Shown here: in pieces, positions 19,275-27,594 of the stretch
Layout of the letters: each line of letters starts with the position of its first letter
How positions within the stretch are numbered: position 1 is the stretch's first letter
Assembly: GCA_026397955.1 (NCBI GenBank)
Contig: JAPLTV010000059.1
Location: forward strand, 1 to 64,000
DNA length: 64,000 nt
From: Verrucomicrobiota bacterium
GTDB lineage: Bacteria > Verrucomicrobiota > Verrucomicrobiia > Opitutales > UBA953
Direction: 5' to 3'
Notes under the pieces: model-generated
Seen by the model: the letters and a program-made list of their open reading frames with translations, nothing else
Databases searched by the model: none
Told to the model about the DNA's origin: nothing
Position numbers and translations under genes: made by a program

Positions 19275-19396
19275 GGTAGGGACGTGATTGCCATCACGTC
19301 CGTTCGCGGACGGAGCCAGGACGTCGGTAAAGCCGACTAAGAGAGCATAACGTACCTTTAAAGGCGAACGGCGGCCATGGCAATGGCCGCCCTACC
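19275..19396. repeat. 122-bp GGTAGGG twin-hairpin element, copy A1
   Basis: Starts with GGTAGGG and ends with CCCTACC. The left hairpin is ACGTGAT-TGCC-ATCACGT; the right is CGGCCAT-GGCA-ATGGCCG. Just inside, CCGTTCGC pairs with a distant GCGAACGG, and a GTCGG-TAAAG-CCGAC hairpin sits in the middle. Its partner at 25485 has the same length and ends but a diverged middle. It fills the gap between the sulfatase and azoreductase genes. Confidence 0.85.
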
Positions 19397-19432
19397 CGTT
19401 GACTCCTAGTTCCTAGCGGATACCTTGGGCGG

Positions 19433-20038
19433 ATGAAAGTCCTGCACATCGACGCCTCACCTCGCACGGTACGGTCGGTGACCCGGAAACTTTCCGCCGG
19501 CTTCATCCAGAACCTGCGACTCAAAGTCCCTGGCTTGCAGGTCACCCATCGCGACGTCGGTCACCATCCGCCTCCCTTCATCTCCGACGCCTGGGTCGGC
19601 GCGGCCTTCGCCCCGGCTGACCACGATGACCCGTCGATGAAAGGCATCCTGCACCACTCCGATGCGCTTACGGCCGAGCTGCTCGCCTGCGATACGCTGC
19701 TCATCGCCACGCCGATGCATAACTTTTCCATCCCGGCCTGCCTCAAAGCCTGGATCGATCAAGTCGTGCGCACCGATATGACCTTCAAGCTGACCGAGGA
19801 AGGCGTCGAGCCACTGGTCAAAGGCAAGAAAGCCCTCATCGTCACCTCCCGCGGCGGTTTCGTCGCCGGCACGGACTTTGATTTCCAGGAGCCCTACCTG
19901 CGCAAGATCCTCGGCTTCATCGGCATCACCGACGTCACCTTCGTGCACGCCGAAGGCGTCAACAGCGGCGAGAAGGAACGTGAAGCGGCCATGACCCAGG
20001 CCTCCGCGAAACTCATAGAGCTGGCGAAGGGTTGGTGA
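19433..20038 (+). CDS. azoR: FMN-dependent NADH-azoreductase
   Basis: A 201-residue flavodoxin-fold quinone/azo reductase. Seen are VLHIDASPRTVRSVTRKLS (FMN phosphate loop), TLLIATPMHNFSIPACLKAWIDQVVR and VTSRGGFV near the flavin, then DFQEPYLRKILGFIGITDV. The usual role is two-electron reduction of quinones or azo compounds in the cytosol. It stands alone on the plus strand between repeat elements, so no operon context helps to define its substrate. Confidence 0.9.
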   Translation: MKVLHIDASPRTVRSVTRKLSAGFIQNLRLKVPGLQVTHRDVGHHPPPFISDAWVGAAFAPADHDDPSMKGILHHSDALTAELLACDTLLIATPMHNFSIPACLKAWIDQVVRTDMTFKLTEEGVEPLVKGKKALIVTSRGGFVAGTDFDFQEPYLRKILGFIGITDVTFVHAEGVNSGEKEREAAMTQASAKLIELAKGW

Positions 20039-20058
20039 GGGACGAACCCTCCGCATCG

Positions 20059-20114
20059 GGTAGGGTCGACCATCCTTGGTCGACCGCGGCCGAGCAAGGA
20101 TGCTCGGCCCTACC
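20059..20114. repeat. 56-bp GGTAGGG twin-hairpin element, copy B1
   Basis: GGTAGGG, an 18-nt hairpin (TCGACCA-TCCT-TGGTCGA), CCGCGG, a second 18-nt hairpin (CCGAGCA-AGGA-TGCTCGG), then CCCTACC. The two hairpins carry the same 8-nt core (CATCCTTG) in opposite orientation with different outer stems. Lies between the convergent azoR and oxidoreductase genes, where it could also act as a two-way transcription stop. Confidence 0.85.
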
Positions 20115-20119
20115 TAAAG

Positions 20120-21217
20120 TTAGCTATACTTCAACTCCACCTTCTTGCCGGTCTTAATCGACTCGTAGATACCGTCGATGATGACCATGTCGCGACGGCC
20201 GAGCTCACCGGAGCAGCTCACGGGCTTTTCGTCACGGAACGCGGCGGCGACGCCATCCATATGGCGCTGCTGCTGGCGGAAGATGCCGAAGTCCAGCTTG
20301 CCCTTGGCGGAGGTGGAGATGTTGAGATTGCGGTAGCTGAAGACGGGACGCTCGCCCTTGAACCAGCCCTTCTCGGCTTCGGCCAGGAACTCAGCGCGAT
20401 TGGCGTCATAGCCCGTCCAGACGTCGGCCACGGCGCCGTTGGCGAACTCGAGACGGAACTCCATGGCCTGTTCGACTTCGGTGAAGAATTCCGGCTGGGT
20501 CTTCGGCAGTTCCTTGGCCGTGACCGAGATGGGGTTGGCGTCGGCCGCCATGCAGCAGGCGTGGACCGAATAGATGCCCATATCCAGGAGGGCGCCACCG
20601 CCGGCGAGCTTCTTGTCGATGCGCCAGGCCTTGCGACGAAGCGTGAAGCCGTTGGCGGTCTTGATCTTCATGAACGGGCCGAACTCCTGGGTTTTGGCGA
20701 GGCGGACGAGCTCCTGGTGATACGGGTCGAAGTGGAGGCGATAGCCGATCGCGAGCCGCTTGCCGGCTTTCTTACCCGCGGCGATCATGGTGTCGCATTC
20801 GGCGGCGGACGTGGCCATCGGCTTCTCGCAGATGACGTGCTTGCCGGCACCGAAGGCCGCGATGACGTTCTGGGCGTGGATGCCGGGCGGCGTCACGACG
20901 TAGACGATGTCGATCGCCTTGTTCGCGGCGACCTTGTCCCACTGATCATAAGAGTAGATATTGGCTTCGTCGAAGCCGTGGAGCTTCGCGAGCTTCACGC
21001 CTTTCTCGCGTGTACCCGTGATCGCCGCCACGAGCTTCACGTTCTTGGTCTCCAGCAACGCCGGCGACAGTTCGCCATTCGAGTAACCACCGAGGCCGCA
21101 CAGGGCGAGGCCAAGCGGCTTACCGCTGGCTTCCGCCGCACGCAGCGCTGGAGCGAGGGCATAACCGGCGGCCAAGCCACCAAGGGTACCGAGGAAGGAA
21201 CGGCGAGTAGGGCTCAT
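20120..21217 (-). CDS. Tat-exported Gfo/Idh/MocA-family oxidoreductase
   Basis: A 365-residue NAD(P)-dependent sugar dehydrogenase-like protein. The start TRRSFLGTLGGLAAGYALAP is a twin-arginine signal, so it is exported folded, probably with bound cofactor. The nucleotide motif is LCGLGGYSNG, the family EKP motif is VICEKPMATSAAEC, and YRLHFDPYHQELVRLA leads into the beta-sheet domain. The closest characterised relatives are glucose-fructose-oxidoreductase-like periplasmic enzymes. The substrate is unknown; neighbours suggest carbohydrate breakdown. Confidence 0.9.
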   Translation of the reverse strand: MSPTRRSFLGTLGGLAAGYALAPALRAAEASGKPLGLALCGLGGYSNGELSPALLETKNVKLVAAITGTREKGVKLAKLHGFDEANIYSYDQWDKVAANKAIDIVYVVTPPGIHAQNVIAAFGAGKHVICEKPMATSAAECDTMIAAGKKAGKRLAIGYRLHFDPYHQELVRLAKTQEFGPFMKIKTANGFTLRRKAWRIDKKLAGGGALLDMGIYSVHACCMAADANPISVTAKELPKTQPEFFTEVEQAMEFRLEFANGAVADVWTGYDANRAEFLAEAEKGWFKGERPVFSYRNLNISTSAKGKLDFGIFRQQQRHMDGVAAAFRDEKPVSCSGELGRRDMVIIDGIYESIKTGKKVELKYS

Positions 21218-21264
21218 AGGGGTGACTCCATTCCTAGCCCACCCCGCCCGCCCCGCAAGTGCAA

Positions 21265-21299
21265 GGTAGGGGCAGCACCGCGTGCTGCCCTAGGGTACC
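21265..21299. repeat. GGTAGGG hairpin element, copy B2
   Basis: GGTAGGG followed by a hairpin with stem GGGCAGCAC/GTGCTGCCC and loop CGC, then CTAGGG and TACC. It is the same 31-nt unit as copy B5 at 25448 and is nearly identical, inverted, to copy B3 at 27411. It lies between the two minus-strand genes for the Gfo/Idh protein and the PVC dehydrogenase. Confidence 0.8.
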
Positions 21300-23819
21300 T
21301 CACTTCTCCCCTTTTAAATAAGCCAACAAATCGGCCAACTGCTGCTTGCTCAGCCCGGCCTCGAGACCGGTCGGCATCAGCGAGCCAGGCAAGGATTCGA
21401 GTTTGGCGAGGTCAGTGCGGAGGAGGTTCGCTTCGATGCCTAACGGACCACGCAAAGTGATCGAGGTGGGCGTGTCGCCGACCAAGATTCCGCTAAGGAT
21501 GCGTCCATCCTTGGCCTCGGCGAGATACGCGGTGAAAGCCGGGGCGATCTCGGCGTCAGGGTTCACGATATGGAAGAGGATGTTTTCTTTGGTCTGACGG
21601 CGGATATCGAAGAGGTCCGGTCCAACCGCGTGCCCTTCCCGGTCCAAGCGGTGGCAGCTGGCGCAGACGGCGTTGAAGACAGCCCTGCCTTCCGTCGGCA
21701 CGGGCTTCAGCGCCAAGGCTTGGCTGGCCTGGGCCAAGGCCTCCGGACGCGCCGAGACGGTCAGCAGGCGCTCCGCCAGGGCTTTCACGGCGGGATCCTT
21801 AGCAGCGAGCACCTGACGTCTGCGCACACCGGTAAAGGCGCTGGCGGGCAGGCGTTTGGCCTCCACGGCGGCCAGGACGCCCTTCACGTGGAAAGGAACG
21901 CCCAGCAAGGCGCCCAAGACGGCATCGCGCCGAGCCGGCGTGTATCGCGACCAACCAGCAAGCAGGGAAACCGAAACCTCTTCCTTGGGATAGGCGACCA
22001 CGGCCTTAAGCGCCGCGGTGGCGAGTTCCGGAGCCGCGTCATCCAGGGCCAGCGACAGTAAGGACTGTCCAGAACGCTCCCAAGGCAGACGAGCCATGAG
22101 TTTCACGGCGACGCTGCGCGCTTCGATGTTCTTGGACTGATCCATCGCGGCGACAGGCGATGAATCGAGAAGCGATTGGAACGAAGCAGGCAGGCCCGCC
22201 GGCTTACGGGACGTAAGATACCCAGACAGCAGAGCGAGCCGAATGGCCTCGGGCGTCGCACCCGCGACCTCGAGATCGGAAGGCTTGGTCATCGAGCCCC
22301 CGAGGTAGCCCAAGACCTCCGCCATGCCTGCACCGACCTTGGCGTCCGCTGGCATGGCCGCCAAGAGCGCCTGCAGGAAAGCAGGTTCGCGTCCGCCGAT
22401 ACCGCTGAGGATGCCGTTACGCATCCACTTGTCCTCCGCGTACGACCACGCGGCTTGGGCGAGCTGCTGGGTGCCTGCAGCGGAGGTATCATCGCCTGCC
22501 CGGATGATCTTGGCGAAGACCGAGTCCGACAAAGACGTGAACGCAGCCATGGCGACCGCAGCGCGGTCGGGTTCCTTGCCGGCTCGCACGCGCCAGATAC
22601 GCCCCATGTTCTTACCGGTCTCGAAGTCGGTATGCTTGCGCACTTCTTCCGGTAGGTAATCAGGGTGCTCGATGACCTTGCGATACATGTCCGCGATATA
22701 CAGGGCTCCCTCCGGCCCCTTGGTCAGGAAGACCGGCCGGAACCAGTCGTCGCGTGAGGCAAGGAACTCGCGGTCCGGATAGAGCGGCGAGGCGGCAAAG
22801 GTCGCGCCCGTGGCCGTAAGGCGATCGGCATGGACGAGATTACCCGTGGGGTCGCACGAGAAGACCGACGCCGAGCACTCCGGCGTGAGCAAGGACTTAC
22901 CCTGCCAGACCTTAACCCCACAGGCGGCACTGAACGAACCAGCATGCCCGTCGGCGGTGGTGATGTTCGAACTGATAGGAAAAAGCCGGACGCCGTCATG
23001 TCCGCCGTTGATGCCGTTGAAGGCGTCGCGCGCGTTGCAGTCCTGGACGGTCTCGCTGAACGCCAGGCGCGGATTACGCTTCAGCCATTTCGACTGGAAG
23101 GCGACATGCTGGACCGGCACACGGTTCATGCAGATGAAGCGGTTCCCGAAGACGTCGAAGCTCATCCCATACTGGGACTTCCCGTCGACCAGTTCGACCT
23201 CGAGGGTCTTGGGATGGAAACGGATGTCCGACGTCATCTTCAGCGGCGGACGCTCTGGATGAGAGGGACACGTGACCGTGCCGCCGCTCAATCCCGCGGC
23301 CAGGTAGATCAGGCCGTCCCATGGGCCGATGGTCGGCGCGTTGACGCGCAGCTGCGTGCTACCCGTCGTGGCGAAGCCGGTGAGCAGCACCTTACGCTCG
23401 TCGGCGACGCCATCGCCGTCGTTATCCTTCAGGAAGAGCACATCCGGCGCACAGGTGACGATGAGCCCGCCACCCCAGGGCAGCACGCCGTTGGGGAACG
23501 TCAGTCCATCGGCGAAGACGGTACGCTTATCCATCCGGCCGTCGCCATCGGTGTCCTCAAGCATCGCGATGACGCCCGCAGGCTTCTCCCCTTCCTTCGG
23601 GCCGATCGGGTAGCCGCGATTCTCGGCCACGAACAAGCGGCCCTTGGAATCGAAAGCGATGGCGCACGGCGAGGCCACCAGCGGCTCGGCGGCGACGAGT
23701 TCGACACGCAGGCCTGGGACGACCTCGAAGGCTTTTAACGCTTCATCCGGAGCGAGCGGACTCGGCAGCGGGGCCGCCACCAGCGCGGAGGCGAATAAGA
23801 TGGAGGCGACTCTAATCAT
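21300..23819 (-). CDS. PVC-type membrane dehydrogenase with c-type haem domain
   Basis: An 839-residue secreted protein of the family common in Planctomycetes and Verrucomicrobia. A signal peptide (1-18) is followed by a beta-propeller dehydrogenase-like domain (LFVAENRGYPIG, MLEDTDGDGRMDKRTVFADGLTFPNGV, LFLKDNDGDGVADERKVLLTGF), a HEAT-like helical middle (~430-690), and a C-terminal cytochrome domain with CASCH at residues 719-723 and a candidate axial Met near 815. A role in oxidising sugars or their breakdown products is presumed; no substrate is proven for close relatives that I know. It overlaps the next upstream gene by 4 bp. Confidence 0.92.
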   Translation of the reverse strand: MIRVASILFASALVAAPLPSPLAPDEALKAFEVVPGLRVELVAAEPLVASPCAIAFDSKGRLFVAENRGYPIGPKEGEKPAGVIAMLEDTDGDGRMDKRTVFADGLTFPNGVLPWGGGLIVTCAPDVLFLKDNDGDGVADERKVLLTGFATTGSTQLRVNAPTIGPWDGLIYLAAGLSGGTVTCPSHPERPPLKMTSDIRFHPKTLEVELVDGKSQYGMSFDVFGNRFICMNRVPVQHVAFQSKWLKRNPRLAFSETVQDCNARDAFNGINGGHDGVRLFPISSNITTADGHAGSFSAACGVKVWQGKSLLTPECSASVFSCDPTGNLVHADRLTATGATFAASPLYPDREFLASRDDWFRPVFLTKGPEGALYIADMYRKVIEHPDYLPEEVRKHTDFETGKNMGRIWRVRAGKEPDRAAVAMAAFTSLSDSVFAKIIRAGDDTSAAGTQQLAQAAWSYAEDKWMRNGILSGIGGREPAFLQALLAAMPADAKVGAGMAEVLGYLGGSMTKPSDLEVAGATPEAIRLALLSGYLTSRKPAGLPASFQSLLDSSPVAAMDQSKNIEARSVAVKLMARLPWERSGQSLLSLALDDAAPELATAALKAVVAYPKEEVSVSLLAGWSRYTPARRDAVLGALLGVPFHVKGVLAAVEAKRLPASAFTGVRRRQVLAAKDPAVKALAERLLTVSARPEALAQASQALALKPVPTEGRAVFNAVCASCHRLDREGHAVGPDLFDIRRQTKENILFHIVNPDAEIAPAFTAYLAEAKDGRILSGILVGDTPTSITLRGPLGIEANLLRTDLAKLESLPGSLMPTGLEAGLSKQQLADLLAYLKGEK

Positions 23820-25324
23820 TTCAGCTGCGGGGGTTGGTCACCATAGGCCCAAGGCTTACCGGCTGGTCCATTCGGACGTTCGAGCAGCTTCGCAGGCTTC
23901 ATCTTGGCCGCGAGCTCGAGGCCAACGTTCATGAACTGGGTGCCAGCGGTGATCTCGAGATTACTGTAGCTCGTCAGGCGCGTCTCGTACCCGCCGCCAT
24001 GCGGACCGAAGGCTTCTTCGTCCGGCACATAACCGACGCAGCCGTTCGCGAGCTCGACCGGGAAGGTGATTGGAAAACCGCTGCGCTTCTTGAGCTGGAG
24101 GCCATACGACACGAAATACTCGGCGGGATTGGAGAGACAGACCACCGAGCCGACCTGGATGGCCTGCACCTCGACCTCGACGTCGCTTTTCTTGGCGATG
24201 AGAGCATCGAGCAGGAGCGTTTCCTTGGCCCAAACCCAATCCTTGTGGGCGGGCGGACCCTTGATACGTTCACGGGCTTCGGCAACACGCTCTGGGGCGG
24301 GAATGCGACGATGCACTTCCCAGACCTTGTGATCGGCGGCGAGCGGTACCTCGGCGGTGCGGGTCTGCGACATGCTCAGCAGGACCTTCAAGGCTTCGGC
24401 GCCTACGCGTCCACCGACGAACTGGGACCAGTCGTCGGATGCCGGATTAGCCTTGGGGTCGAGGTTGTTGACCTGGGTCACGTCCCCACAGGCGCCCTGG
24501 AGGAAGACCACGTTGGCGTCCTTGCCGTAATACCCTTGGATGACCTTTTCGGTGTAATGGATCCAGTTCGCTCCGATGCCATCGGAGTTCGCGGTGGCGT
24601 GGCAGGAGAAGTTGACGAGGCAGCCAGCGAGCGTGCCGTCCGGGCGCCAGACACCGATCACGCCGACCTCATCGTCGGTCGGATTAGCGAACTCGACTAC
24701 GTCGGGGTTGTTCTTGCCCGGATGCGAGAAAGTCAGCCCGTTCTTCATCCGCAAACGGCGATTGAAAGCTACCTGGCTCTCATGGCCCACGCCGTAACCG
24801 ACCGTGACCGCGGCCTTGGACTGATCGGCGGCGACGATGGCCTCGACCGTGGCGGCGACGACCTTCTTAAGATAGCCCGCATCGGCACAGGATGATTTCT
24901 TATACGCCAGTTCCTGGATCTCGGCCGAAGCGTGATCGAACTCGCCGGGCAGGATCATCCCAATCGGACCGGAGGAATGGGAATGCGAAGCGCCGATCAT
25001 CACGTCGGTGATACCCGTGGCGGCTTTCACCAGACCTCGGATTTCCTGGACCGTCTCGCGGCGGATCATCAGGGCGTCGATGCCGACGAGCGCCACGCGC
25101 TTCTGGCCATCATCGAAGACGCTCGCACGCACCTTGCACGGGTCGTGGATCTTCTTCGAGTAGACCTTCCCATAGTTGCCCGGGACTTCCATCCCGATGT
25201 CGGGCGTGATGTCGCGATCAGCGAACCCCACGCGGACACCGGGCTTGGCGGGCGGCGCGGCGAAGAGCGTGACGGAAGCCAGGGCCAGCAAGACATGGCG
25301 GAAACCGAGTCGGGGAGAACTCAT
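23816..25324 (-). CDS. secreted neutral-ceramidase-like hydrolase
   Basis: A 502-residue protein with signal peptide (~1-24) and the neutral/alkaline ceramidase N-terminal domain: VGFADRDITPDIGMEVPG, zinc-type HSHSSGP, NFSCHATANS and the LQGACGDVTQVN loop. In true ceramidases the last loop is GDVSPN with the Ser as nucleophile; here it is Thr, so the reaction may differ. Its stop overlaps the dehydrogenase start (ATGA), giving a coupled two-gene operon. Many PVC genomes use this fold for unassigned hydrolysis, and I leave the substrate open. Confidence 0.85.
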   Translation of the reverse strand: MSSPRLGFRHVLLALASVTLFAAPPAKPGVRVGFADRDITPDIGMEVPGNYGKVYSKKIHDPCKVRASVFDDGQKRVALVGIDALMIRRETVQEIRGLVKAATGITDVMIGASHSHSSGPIGMILPGEFDHASAEIQELAYKKSSCADAGYLKKVVAATVEAIVAADQSKAAVTVGYGVGHESQVAFNRRLRMKNGLTFSHPGKNNPDVVEFANPTDDEVGVIGVWRPDGTLAGCLVNFSCHATANSDGIGANWIHYTEKVIQGYYGKDANVVFLQGACGDVTQVNNLDPKANPASDDWSQFVGGRVGAEALKVLLSMSQTRTAEVPLAADHKVWEVHRRIPAPERVAEARERIKGPPAHKDWVWAKETLLLDALIAKKSDVEVEVQAIQVGSVVCLSNPAEYFVSYGLQLKKRSGFPITFPVELANGCVGYVPDEEAFGPHGGGYETRLTSYSNLEITAGTQFMNVGLELAAKMKPAKLLERPNGPAGKPWAYGDQPPQLK

Positions 25325-25372
25325 AGGGGTATGAGCAGATATGTCAGGGAAAGTTCCCGCGACAAGCCCACG

Positions 25373-25430
25373 AGTATGGGGTCAGACCGCTTCTGAAGGA
25401 TATCGGTCAGAAGCGGTCTGACCCCGTACT
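25373..25430. repeat. 24-bp-stem inverted repeat
   Basis: Arms at 25373-25396 and 25407-25430 pair over 24 bp with one mismatch around a 10-nt loop. The arm contains GGGGTCAGACCGCTTCTGA. It belongs to a different sequence type from the GGTAGGG elements that follow. It could be a bidirectional terminator or a mobile palindromic repeat; there is no T-run. Confidence 0.75.
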
Positions 25431-25447
25431 GTATCCTTGCGTCGATG

Positions 25448-25478
25448 GGTAGGGTCGGGACCGCGTCACGACATAGGG
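25448..25478. repeat. GGTAGGG single-hairpin element, copy B5
   Basis: A 31-nt unit: GGTAGGG, TCGGG-ACCGCGT-CACGA hairpin with one stem mismatch, then CATAGGG. The ACCGCGT core and total length equal those of copies B2 and B3, while the stem differs. It precedes copy A2 by 6 bp. Confidence 0.7.
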
Positions 25479-25484
25479 AAACCA

Positions 25485-25606
25485 GGTAGGGACGTGATTA
25501 CCATCACGTCCGTTCGCGGACCGACCTGAAATGCCGTCAAAGACCGCTAAGTCCGTACGACGGGCCTCCCGTGGCGAACGGACGCCATGGCAATGGCGTC
25601 CCTACC
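25485..25606. repeat. 122-bp GGTAGGG twin-hairpin element, copy A2
   Basis: Same ends and exact length as the copy at 19275. Left hairpin ACGTGAT-TACC-ATCACGT, right hairpin ACGCCAT-GGCA-ATGGCGT. Relative to the other copy, the right stem changes on both sides so pairing is kept. The middle ~50 bp are only partly alike. It ends 8 bp before the umuC stop. Confidence 0.85.
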
Positions 25607-25614
25607 TTAAGATC

Positions 25615-26919
25615 TCACTCGTGAAATCTAATCCGCGGCTTGGGGCCGTCTTTCGCCTTCGGTAAACGCTCGGGGTCGGTCAGCGAGGCGCCAGACTGGA
25701 GCTCGGACTTACCCTTCCACTCCCGCTCGAAGCCGGTGCTGGCGAGGCGCACGGCATCTCGTCCGAGCTTATGGTTCAAGGCGTCGACGGCCTTCATGAG
25801 CCGGTCCTTGTTCGGGTCAGCCTCGCCGCCCATGCCGGGCAAGGAGGGCTGCACGACGTCGGCCGGGGTCAGGCCGTGGAGCATCACCCCTGCCCGCTTA
25901 TACATATACCCATCGCGACGCACGCGTGCCAACGCCCTTGAAGCCGCCGCGCAGATCGCCCGGGCATCATCGGTCGGCGGATCGAGCGGCTCCATCTCAT
26001 CGCCGCGATACTGCTCCTGATCGATGCGATGCTGGTTCGTGCGGATGAAGACCACGATCGACGAAGCGACCAAGCCGTCTTCGCGGAGTTTCTCGGCCGC
26101 CCGGGCCGCGTGCGAAGCGATGGCTTCGGACAGCTCATGCGCATCGGTGATCGGACGACCGAAGGAACGAGAGACCAACACGCTCTTCCGCGGGCCGGCG
26201 TCCTCGACGATGTCATGGCAGGAGATGCCGCGTAGTTCGAGGGCGAGACGCTCGCCGACCACGCCCGCGATGCGTCGGACGAAGCCCGGATCGGCCTCCG
26301 CGAGGTCGATCGCCGAAAGGATGCCATGGGAGCGCAGGCGCGACGCTAAGCCGGGGCCAACGCCCCAGACGTCTTCGGCTTCGACGCCGCGCAGGAAGGC
26401 CGTGCGGCCTTCGGTATCGACCGGCACCACGATCACGCCACCGCTCGATTTATCTGCCTTCGCCCGCTCATTGGCCAGCTTGCAGAGCACCTTCGTCGGA
26501 GCCATCCCCAGCGAAATCGGGATGCCCGTGCGCTTCAGGACATCGGCCCGGATACGCAGGCCCAGAGCCCTCGCATCGGTATCAGGCATATCGGGGAAGC
26601 CCAGGAACGCCTCATCGACCGAATACACCTCGAGGTCGCGCGCCTGTTCGCCCAGGGCGGCCATCACGCGTTCGGAGAAATCGCCGTAGACCTCGAAGTT
26701 GGAAGAGAAGATGCGGACGCCATGGGCTTCGCAGGTCCGACGCACTTCAAAATACGGCGCGCCCATCGGGATACCCAGCGCCTTGGCCTCGGACGAACGC
26801 GCGACCACGCAGCCGTCGTTATTCGACAGCACCACGATCGGCACGCCGATCAACGACGGATCCAGCGCGCGCTCGCAGGAAGCGTAGAAGTTATTACAGT
26901 CAGCGAGGGCGCGGAGCAT
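25615..26919 (-). CDS. umuC: UmuC-type Y-family DNA polymerase
   Basis: The catalytic subunit of translesion polymerase V. The 434-residue protein has [12 protein letters not shown] (Asp7) and [10 protein letters not shown] (Asp102, Glu103) as the metal-binding triad, [18 protein letters not shown], the helix-hairpin-helix ([17 protein letters not shown]) and a C-terminal DUF4113-like region ([25 protein letters not shown]). The frame is open further upstream, but ATG 26919 matches the family start exactly. It follows umuD by 4 bp and shares its SOS control. Confidence 0.94.
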
Positions 26920-26923
26920 GGCG

Positions 26924-27355
26924 TCAGCAGCGGCGCACGACGGCGACCACCGTCCCCCAGATACGGCATTCGGGCGTGAAAGGCAACGACCAGCCCGACC
27001 AGCGGGGACTATCGGCCCGCAGACTCCAGGCGCCCGCAGCATCACGCTCCAGGTGCTTCACCGTGAACTCGCCCCCGACCTCCGCGACCACGATCGTGCC
27101 CGCACGCGCCGAGAGCGACTTGTCGACCACGATGAGGTCGTCGGTAAGGATACCCGCGCCCGACATCGAATCGCCGTCGACGCGCAGGAAGAAGGTCGAG
27201 ATCGGATTGCGGACCAGGTGCTCGTTCAGATCGAGGCGACGCTCCATGTGGTCGTCGGCCGGCGACGGGAAGCCCGCGACCGCACGGGAGCCGAGCAACG
27301 GCAAGGCCAACGGCCGCCGGGCTTCGAACTCCTGCAAAGTACGCATGTCCAACAT
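26924..27355 (-). CDS. umuD: UmuD-type LexA-like autoprotease subunit of Pol V
   Basis: UmuD is cleaved on the RecA filament to UmuD', the active partner of UmuC. From ATG 27355 the cleavage site is A27-G28 ([11 protein letters not shown]), nucleophile Ser63 (GDSM) and Lys100 ([10 protein letters not shown]). The spacing of Ser to Lys (37) and of cleavage Gly to Ser (35) equals that of E. coli UmuD. ATG 27373 is unlikely since it lies inside the operator; ATG 27346 is also possible. No clear ribosome-binding site is seen before either. Confidence 0.92.
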
Positions 27356-27377
27356 AAGTGAACGGATGTTCACTTAT
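27354..27377 (-). promoter_or_regulatory. SOS box (LexA operator) of umuDC
   Basis: Perfect 10-bp inverted repeat, ATAAGTGAAC and GTTCACTTAT around GGAT. Its centre GAAC-N4-GTTC is the LexA operator form of Gram-positive bacteria and several other phyla. It overlaps the first bases of umuD from ATG 27355, where LexA would block initiation or early elongation. Confidence 0.85.
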
Positions 27378-27410
27378 CAGGGGAAGGCTTCAAGGAGAAA
27401 GCATCAGGCC

Positions 27411-27439
27411 ATAGGGCAGCACGCGGTGCTGCCCCTACC
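27411..27439. repeat. GGTAGGG hairpin element, copy B3 (inverted)
   Basis: On the minus strand this reads GGTAGGG, then the hairpin GGGCAGCAC-CGC-GTGCTGCCC, then TAT: 28 of 29 nt match copy B2 at 21265. It sits in the 300-bp gene-free gap 27378-27679 with copy B4 and the cysK terminator; nothing else is visible there. Confidence 0.82.
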
Positions 27440-27540
27440 TCCAGGCAAAGCTGCATAACTCAAAGGGAAACCGGATGATTGGCTGGGGCATCTGGCCTGT
27501 CATCGATTCAGTCATCTCCGGCCGCCGAACGGTGGCCGAA

Positions 27541-27594
27541 GGTAGGGGCACGACTACGACGTGCCCTAGGGCGGGGCGTAGCCCCGCCCCTACC
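27541..27594. repeat. 54-bp GGTAGGG twin-hairpin element, copy B4
   Basis: GGTAGGG, hairpin GGCACG-ACTACGA-CGTGCC plus CTAGGG, then hairpin GGGCGGGGC-GTA-GCCCCGCCC and CCTACC. The shared core of the two hairpins is CTACG, read on opposite strands. The first module plus its CTAGGG is again 31 nt. Confidence 0.8.

Follow-up and report, generated by a model that had tools for sequence, protein, structure and literature searches.

The window, that is the whole 64-kb stretch of DNA analysed, contains seven REP elements between positions 19275 and 27594, all of which sit between genes according to the ORF listing. They amount to 11 hairpins, arranged as four inverted pairs closed by CCCTACC (19275-19396, 20059-20114, 25485-25606 and 27541-27594) and three single hairpins. 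All seven GGTAGGG elements claimed in a preliminary description of this DNA do exist, four of them as inverted pairs; the element placed at 27411 occupies 27414-27439, with its foot on the minus strand. Each hairpin consists of GGTAG, a 9-bp stem, a loop of 3-4 nt and the return stem. The 9 bp include the GG of the foot, the first two pairs using the last GG of GGTAGGG. The hairpins are the following.

19275 to 19301, plus strand: REP arm with foot GGTAG, stem GGACGTGAT and loop TGCC; family TGCC
19370 to 19396, minus strand: REP arm with stem GGCGGCCAT and loop TGCC; partner of 19275, spacer 68 nt
20059 to 20085, plus strand: REP arm with stem GGTCGACCA and loop TCCT; family TCCY
20088 to 20114, minus strand: REP arm with stem GGCCGAGCA and loop TCCT; partner of 20059, spacer 2 nt
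21265 to 21290, plus strand: single REP with stem GGGCAGCAC and loop CGC; family CGC-h
25448 to 25473, plus strand: single REP with stem GGTCGGGAC, which contains a G.A mismatch, and loop CGC; family CGC-f
25485 to 25511, plus strand: REP arm with stem GGACGTGAT and loop TACC; deviating member of family TGCC
25580 to 25606, minus strand: REP arm with stem GGACGCCAT and loop TGCC; partner of 25485, spacer 68 nt
27414 to 27439, minus strand: single REP with stem GGGCAGCAC and loop CGC; family CGC-h
27541 to 27566, plus strand: REP arm with stem GGGCACGAC and loop TAC; family TAC
27569 to 27594, minus strand: REP arm with stem GGGCGGGGC and loop TAC; partner of 27541, spacer 2 nt

The 68-nt spacer of the two TGCC pairs (19275 and 25485) starts with GTTCGC and ends with GCGAAC, which form a third stem in the predicted fold, and 19275-19396 is predicted to adopt a cloverleaf-like shape. 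A G.A mismatch at stem position 6 is kept in CGC-f REPs and in some TAC REPs (25448 in the window, and contigs L065 and L020); it resembles the recognised bulge of E. coli REPs.

The foot is over-represented, with 15 occurrences of GGTAGGG in the window compared to 4.1 expected, and none of 100 shuffles reached 15. In a census of 461 kb of the same genome, a hairpin was present at 122 of 162 GGTAGGG feet. Scrambled feet of the same letters yielded only 1 to 5 hairpins each in the same 461 kb (six controls; a seventh, GGGTAGG, was discarded because it overlaps the real foot). The tens of copies anticipated in the preliminary description, with one foot and many cores, are therefore present, and the family is not limited to a few copies. 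Genome-wide, 54 inverted pairs with 20 to 50 nt between feet were found, and none in the reversed pattern. Such pairs were found in 33 of the 37 genomes of the genus examined, this one included, and are nearly absent outside the genus. With GTAG placed 5′ of a short hairpin, and many intergenic copies, these sequences are REP elements. The 54 pairs are REPINs, in which two inverted REPs form the spreading unit; at orthologous sites, pairs are present or absent as a whole.

Across this genus of the Opitutae, about 14 loop families were distinguished, all built on the GGTAGGG foot: TGCC, TCCT/TCCC, CCCT, TCC, GCC, TTC/TC and TAC, and further TGC (two stem types), CGC (two), CAC, GAC, GGC and TAT/TTT. 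This bacterium has at least eight of them. The stems do vary, as had been noticed, not as one freely varying family but as several, to each of which a particular loop and a particular RAYT clade belong. In most REPINs the two arms are characteristic and unlike each other.

RAYT genes adjoin GCC, TAC, TGCC and TGC REPs in this genome, and in the sampled genus a RAYT was found for nearly every loop family. The copies of this genome match the profile NF047646 (REP-associated tyrosine transposase) with E values of 9e-22 and 2e-18, scores that lie just below its curated cut-off, which some congeneric copies pass. Their nearest solved structure is 4er8, TnpA-REP bound to a REP hairpin (profile E 2e-16; fold TM 0.76, using a predicted structure with pLDDT 91). 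The MPDH motif and the catalytic Tyr are invariant; HxH, Tyr and REP_Tyr_transpos, the marks of the Y1 HUH TnpA-REP family, are all found. The closest named relative of one RAYT comes from an uncultured Opitutae bacterium, which places the host most probably within the Opitutae. The genes are flanked by REPs of their own family. One REP lies on each side of the CAC, CGC-h and CGC-f RAYTs, to be compared with IS200/IS605 insertion sequences, in which a transposase gene travels as a unit with the left and right hairpins around it. The earlier reading of the elements as a REP/BIME-RAYT system is right: RAYTs that belong to the expected family are present, with these elements around them.

Where a loop family recurrently flanks RAYT genes, these belong to a single RAYT clade. 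On a tree of 42 RAYTs carrying 18 labels, the loop label changes 17 times, which is the minimum, compared to 32.8 with shuffled labels, and all eight loop labels represented by at least two rows form single, well supported groups. Since a RAYT is passed on along with both its loop and its stem type, the tree by itself does not tell which of the two is read. Copy number follows the transposase for the GCC loop: the three genomes in which a GCC RAYT was detected hold 18 to 34 GCC REPs, and the median over 38 others is 1 (one-sided p 0.005). Several genomes carry many REP copies without a detected cognate RAYT, these MAGs being incomplete and breaking at repeats.

Next to an invariant Lys in helix alpha 3, the following residue aligns with K82 of the E. 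coli TnpA-REP, which contacts the unpaired bulge base (PMC8266576). In the superclade with N-purine-C loops this residue is Arg, except in GAC RAYTs (His) and TAT/TTT RAYTs (Ala); in the NCC-type superclade it is Gly, Thr, Gln or, once, Arg. The alignment gives only a hint that this residue may be tied to loop preference, as the pattern follows the tree closely.

In sister species, the orthologous intergenic sites either lack the element or hold one of a different family. The site 27411-27594 is empty in two species (G003 and G008) and occupied by other REP families in five: G013 and G016 have a TCCC/TCCT-type pair there, G007 has CAC REPs, G024 a CCCT pair and G012 a pair of a further type. 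The 20059 pair also occurs in G013, G016 and G022, but G007 and G008 lack it, and at the site of the 25485 pair one sister species has a TGCT/TGCT pair. Presence or absence at single sites between relatives, the behaviour of a mobile element, is thus observed. The population structure of these REPs, their association with RAYTs and the polymorphism of their sites are direct observations; the transposition step itself we infer. As a separate observation, the site of the 19275 pair is occupied in three sister species (L214, L215 and L217) by a composite of a CAC REP, a CGC-f-like REP and an inverted CAC REP.

We next consider the hairpins themselves. They had been described as having stems that differ between copies yet stay paired, and this was confirmed: in sets of 19 distinct TGCC hairpins and 22 distinct TCCY/CCCT hairpins, pairing holds in 98% of stem cells, and in both sets none of 500 shuffles gave a covariation score as high. 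The stems drift by compensatory changes. When non-Watson-Crick pairs were counted on the GTAG strand with equal penalties, G.T (33) exceeded A.C (11; p 0.0013), and therefore the strand beginning with GTAG is the one kept foldable. Identical stems (CTGACC- and TTGAGC-) occur with CCCT in both arms or with GCC in both arms, so stem and loop behave as separate modules.

G.T pairs would also be expected if the hairpins acted mainly as RNA, as terminators or mRNA stabilisers, with mobility being secondary. The elements of the window are indeed intergenic, and one starts 2 nt past a stop codon (19272/19275). Against such a role stand the linkage to RAYTs and the polymorphism of sites, and we consider it improbable. 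No poly-T tail is visible after the hairpins of the window, and an Rfam search of the elements gave no match.

The two arms of a pair were then compared. In the window, the loops are identical within the pairs with TGCC, TCCT and TAC, and one base apart in the 25485 pair (TACC/TGCC), so the same core reported for every pair holds for three of the four. Over 113 distinct inverted pairs, loops are identical in 64, compared to 10.7 (maximum 21) when partners were shuffled, and the cores thus match far better than chance. The stems behave otherwise. Differences from arm to arm fall mostly at stem positions 3-7, positions 1-2 being fixed and the closing pairs nearly fixed. Among the 54 pairs with a spacer of at most 15 nt, none repeats the same stem in both arms, and in 53 the stems are unlike at two positions or more. 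No homodimer was found in 91 pairs from many genomes (41 GCC and 50 TGCC pairs), when 8.5 and 14.4 respectively were expected with shuffled arms. More weight should be given to the distinct stem combinations than to these raw counts, because pairs are inherited as units; there are 10 and 11 of them (21 in total), none homodimeric.

The unlike-stem rule relaxes when the spacer is long, and the long-spacer families do not strictly obey it. CAC pairs (spacer 40-48 nt) are homodimers, and TGC pairs (spacer 21-65 nt) are mostly one base pair apart; for both, the predicted fold is a single long hairpin. TGCC pairs (spacer 64-72 nt) still show two to four differences between stems. At the level of families, spacer and stem difference are related with a p of 0.01, which is only indicative, as it was obtained with rounded family values.

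Predicted DNA folding suggests what the rule may achieve. Among short-spacer pairs, two local hairpins were predicted (probability >0.5) in 41 of 49; when either arm was made identical to the other, base-pair probabilities gave two hairpins in 0 of 98. For the 20059 and 27541 pairs, the prediction is two hairpins carried by a short stem in which the feet pair with each other; a homodimer version of either is predicted to form a single hairpin of 25-26 bp.

The lack of homodimers could alternatively be a survival effect, short-spacer palindromes being cut by SbcCD-type nucleases or lost in replication, in which case transposition would be irrelevant. Palindrome toxicity has been proposed for heterodimers (PMC3733652), and the absence of homodimers at spacers of at most 15 nt, with their presence at 40-48 nt, fits it as well. 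Taken alone, however, survival explains neither why loops stay identical while stems change nor the G.T strand bias, which points to the use of one strand. We regard it as possible, though rather unlikely as the whole cause.

Two further candidates concern the matched cores. The first is a kissing contact between the two loops, which on one strand are complementary by construction when matched loops lie on opposite strands. Against it, single-copy loop changes are mostly one-armed (TGCC with a TGCT, TACC, TACT, TGCG or TGC loop), and most pairs of the TCCT/TCCC family carry a loop mismatch; moreover, three-base loops such as TAC would presumably yield little binding energy. It appears very unlikely. 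In the second, template switching or gene conversion between arms copies the core across, which would directly explain matching, and the TGCT/TGCT pair at the 25485 site is the one two-armed loop change found, against the one-armed cases. Copying should nevertheless equalise the stems too, and these remain different, and single-copy loop mutations stay in one arm; this explanation, too, appears very unlikely. Both were rejected as poorly supported.

This system is a REP/REPIN-RAYT system with several families coexisting in an Opitutae genome. Most likely, foot and loop are read by the RAYT, and all that is required of a stem is to pair inside its arm and not with the opposite one. According to the joint explanation that we favour, with a probability of about 0.7, each family would owe its mobility to a RAYT of its own, a single-strand transposase of the Y1 HUH type, for which the 3-4 nt loop and its closing base pair would serve as the address. 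This role of the loop is suggested by the one-to-one match between loops and RAYT clades, and by the published loop recognition of group 3 RAYTs. The lower and middle stem would have only to pair within its own arm, and could drift by compensatory changes. Identical stems on arms within about 15 nt of each other would form one long hairpin in which both loops and both feet are hidden, and only pairs with unlike stems would persist at short spacers for that reason. Unlike stems are a plain rule of the short-spacer pairs, and predicted folding agrees with their separating the two hairpins. The selective cause acting against homodimers may be lost transposition, host removal of perfect palindromes, or both, and host removal may act together with the loss of substrate structure. 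No copying mechanism would be needed for the matched cores, because each arm has to present the loop that belongs to their common RAYT.

REPs, REPINs, RAYTs, several families per genome and stem heterodimers are already known. Di Nocera et al. 2013 (PMC3733652) described GTAG REP families and head-to-head heterodimers, including those of Opitutus terrae; this bacterium, from the same phylum, had thus been recognised earlier as having an abundance of GTAG REPs. Their elements resemble ours in the GTAG foot, the 6-9 bp stem, the 2-4 nt loop and the inverted dimers, as well as in having several families per genome, some dimers with unlike stems and some spacers of 1-2 bp. Variable stems are thus less foreign to ordinary REPs than had been stated, heterodimers being known for other GTAG REPs; the same authors found no obvious explanation for the preference for heterodimers. 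In contrast to their REPs, many RAYT-linked families here share one GGTAGGG foot, and the arms share the loop and differ in stem as a rule which follows spacer length.

The REPINs of Pseudomonas fluorescens SBW25 (Bertels and Rainey 2011, PMC3116915) are likewise inverted doublets that spread, linked to RAYTs, singlets being remnants. Their ends are invariant and predicted to form one hairpin, whereas the short-spacer pairs studied here have unlike stems and two predicted hairpins, and lack the near-identical ends of the SBW25 type; the CAC and TGC long-spacer pairs do fold as one long hairpin in prediction. In other bacteria, recognition by group 3 RAYTs involves the bases of the loop, to which GTAG and stem add their part (PMC8266576). 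The group 3 TnpA-REP of Stenotrophomonas and Marinomonas, with similarly short stems and 3-4 nt loops, require loop bases for cleavage, and one REPtron each was tested there, compared to about 14 natural RAYT-loop pairs in one genus here. The E. coli TnpA-REP acting on y and z REPs (BIME; 4er8) shares the Y1 HUH fold and heterodimeric BIMEs, and its REPs have a mid-stem mismatch as do two families here (CGC-f and TAC). It reads GTAG and the bulge, not the loop (PMC8266576), which counts against loop reading in our case.

Among open-licence papers, no published description of the unlike-stem rule was found. As far as the papers searched show, the following is new: adjacent arms share loop and foot and never the stem, a rule that relaxes with spacer length; loops and RAYTs match one-to-one in about 14 clades with one common foot; and loops are exchanged between stems. 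The genus provides a natural experiment: loops are matched to about 14 RAYT clades, spacer length ranges from 2 to 72 nt, and one finds both the same stems with different loops and the same loops with different stems. It makes testable whether loops are transposase addresses, and whether stem divergence keeps neighbouring hairpins apart. Tentatively, and with somewhat less than even confidence, we propose that the loop is a swappable address, perhaps read via the K82-equivalent residue, and that adjacent arms are selected for unlike stems, giving a twin-hairpin substrate. With a loop code for RAYTs, it would be easier to predict the REPs that a given RAYT is able to move.

Some minor observations were made along the way. 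On contig L019 (1480-2016, minus strand), the open frame of a GCC RAYT runs through the flanking REP hairpins, and part of a REP may be translated within it. A RAYT and REPs of this Opitutae type also lie on contig L135 (CALPIW020000129.1), which is assigned to Polynucleobacter meluiroseus, probably through misbinning. Finally, positions 25372-25425 of the window contain a separate long palindrome, GGGGTCAGACCGCTTCTGA...TCAGAAGCGGTCTGACCCC, which has no relation to the GGTAGGG elements; in G016 and G008 it is conserved at the corresponding site. The GGGGTCAGAC repeats also flank the gene of a larger Y1-type protein on contig L047, and this palindrome may belong to a TIR-associated transposase (TIRYT) system.
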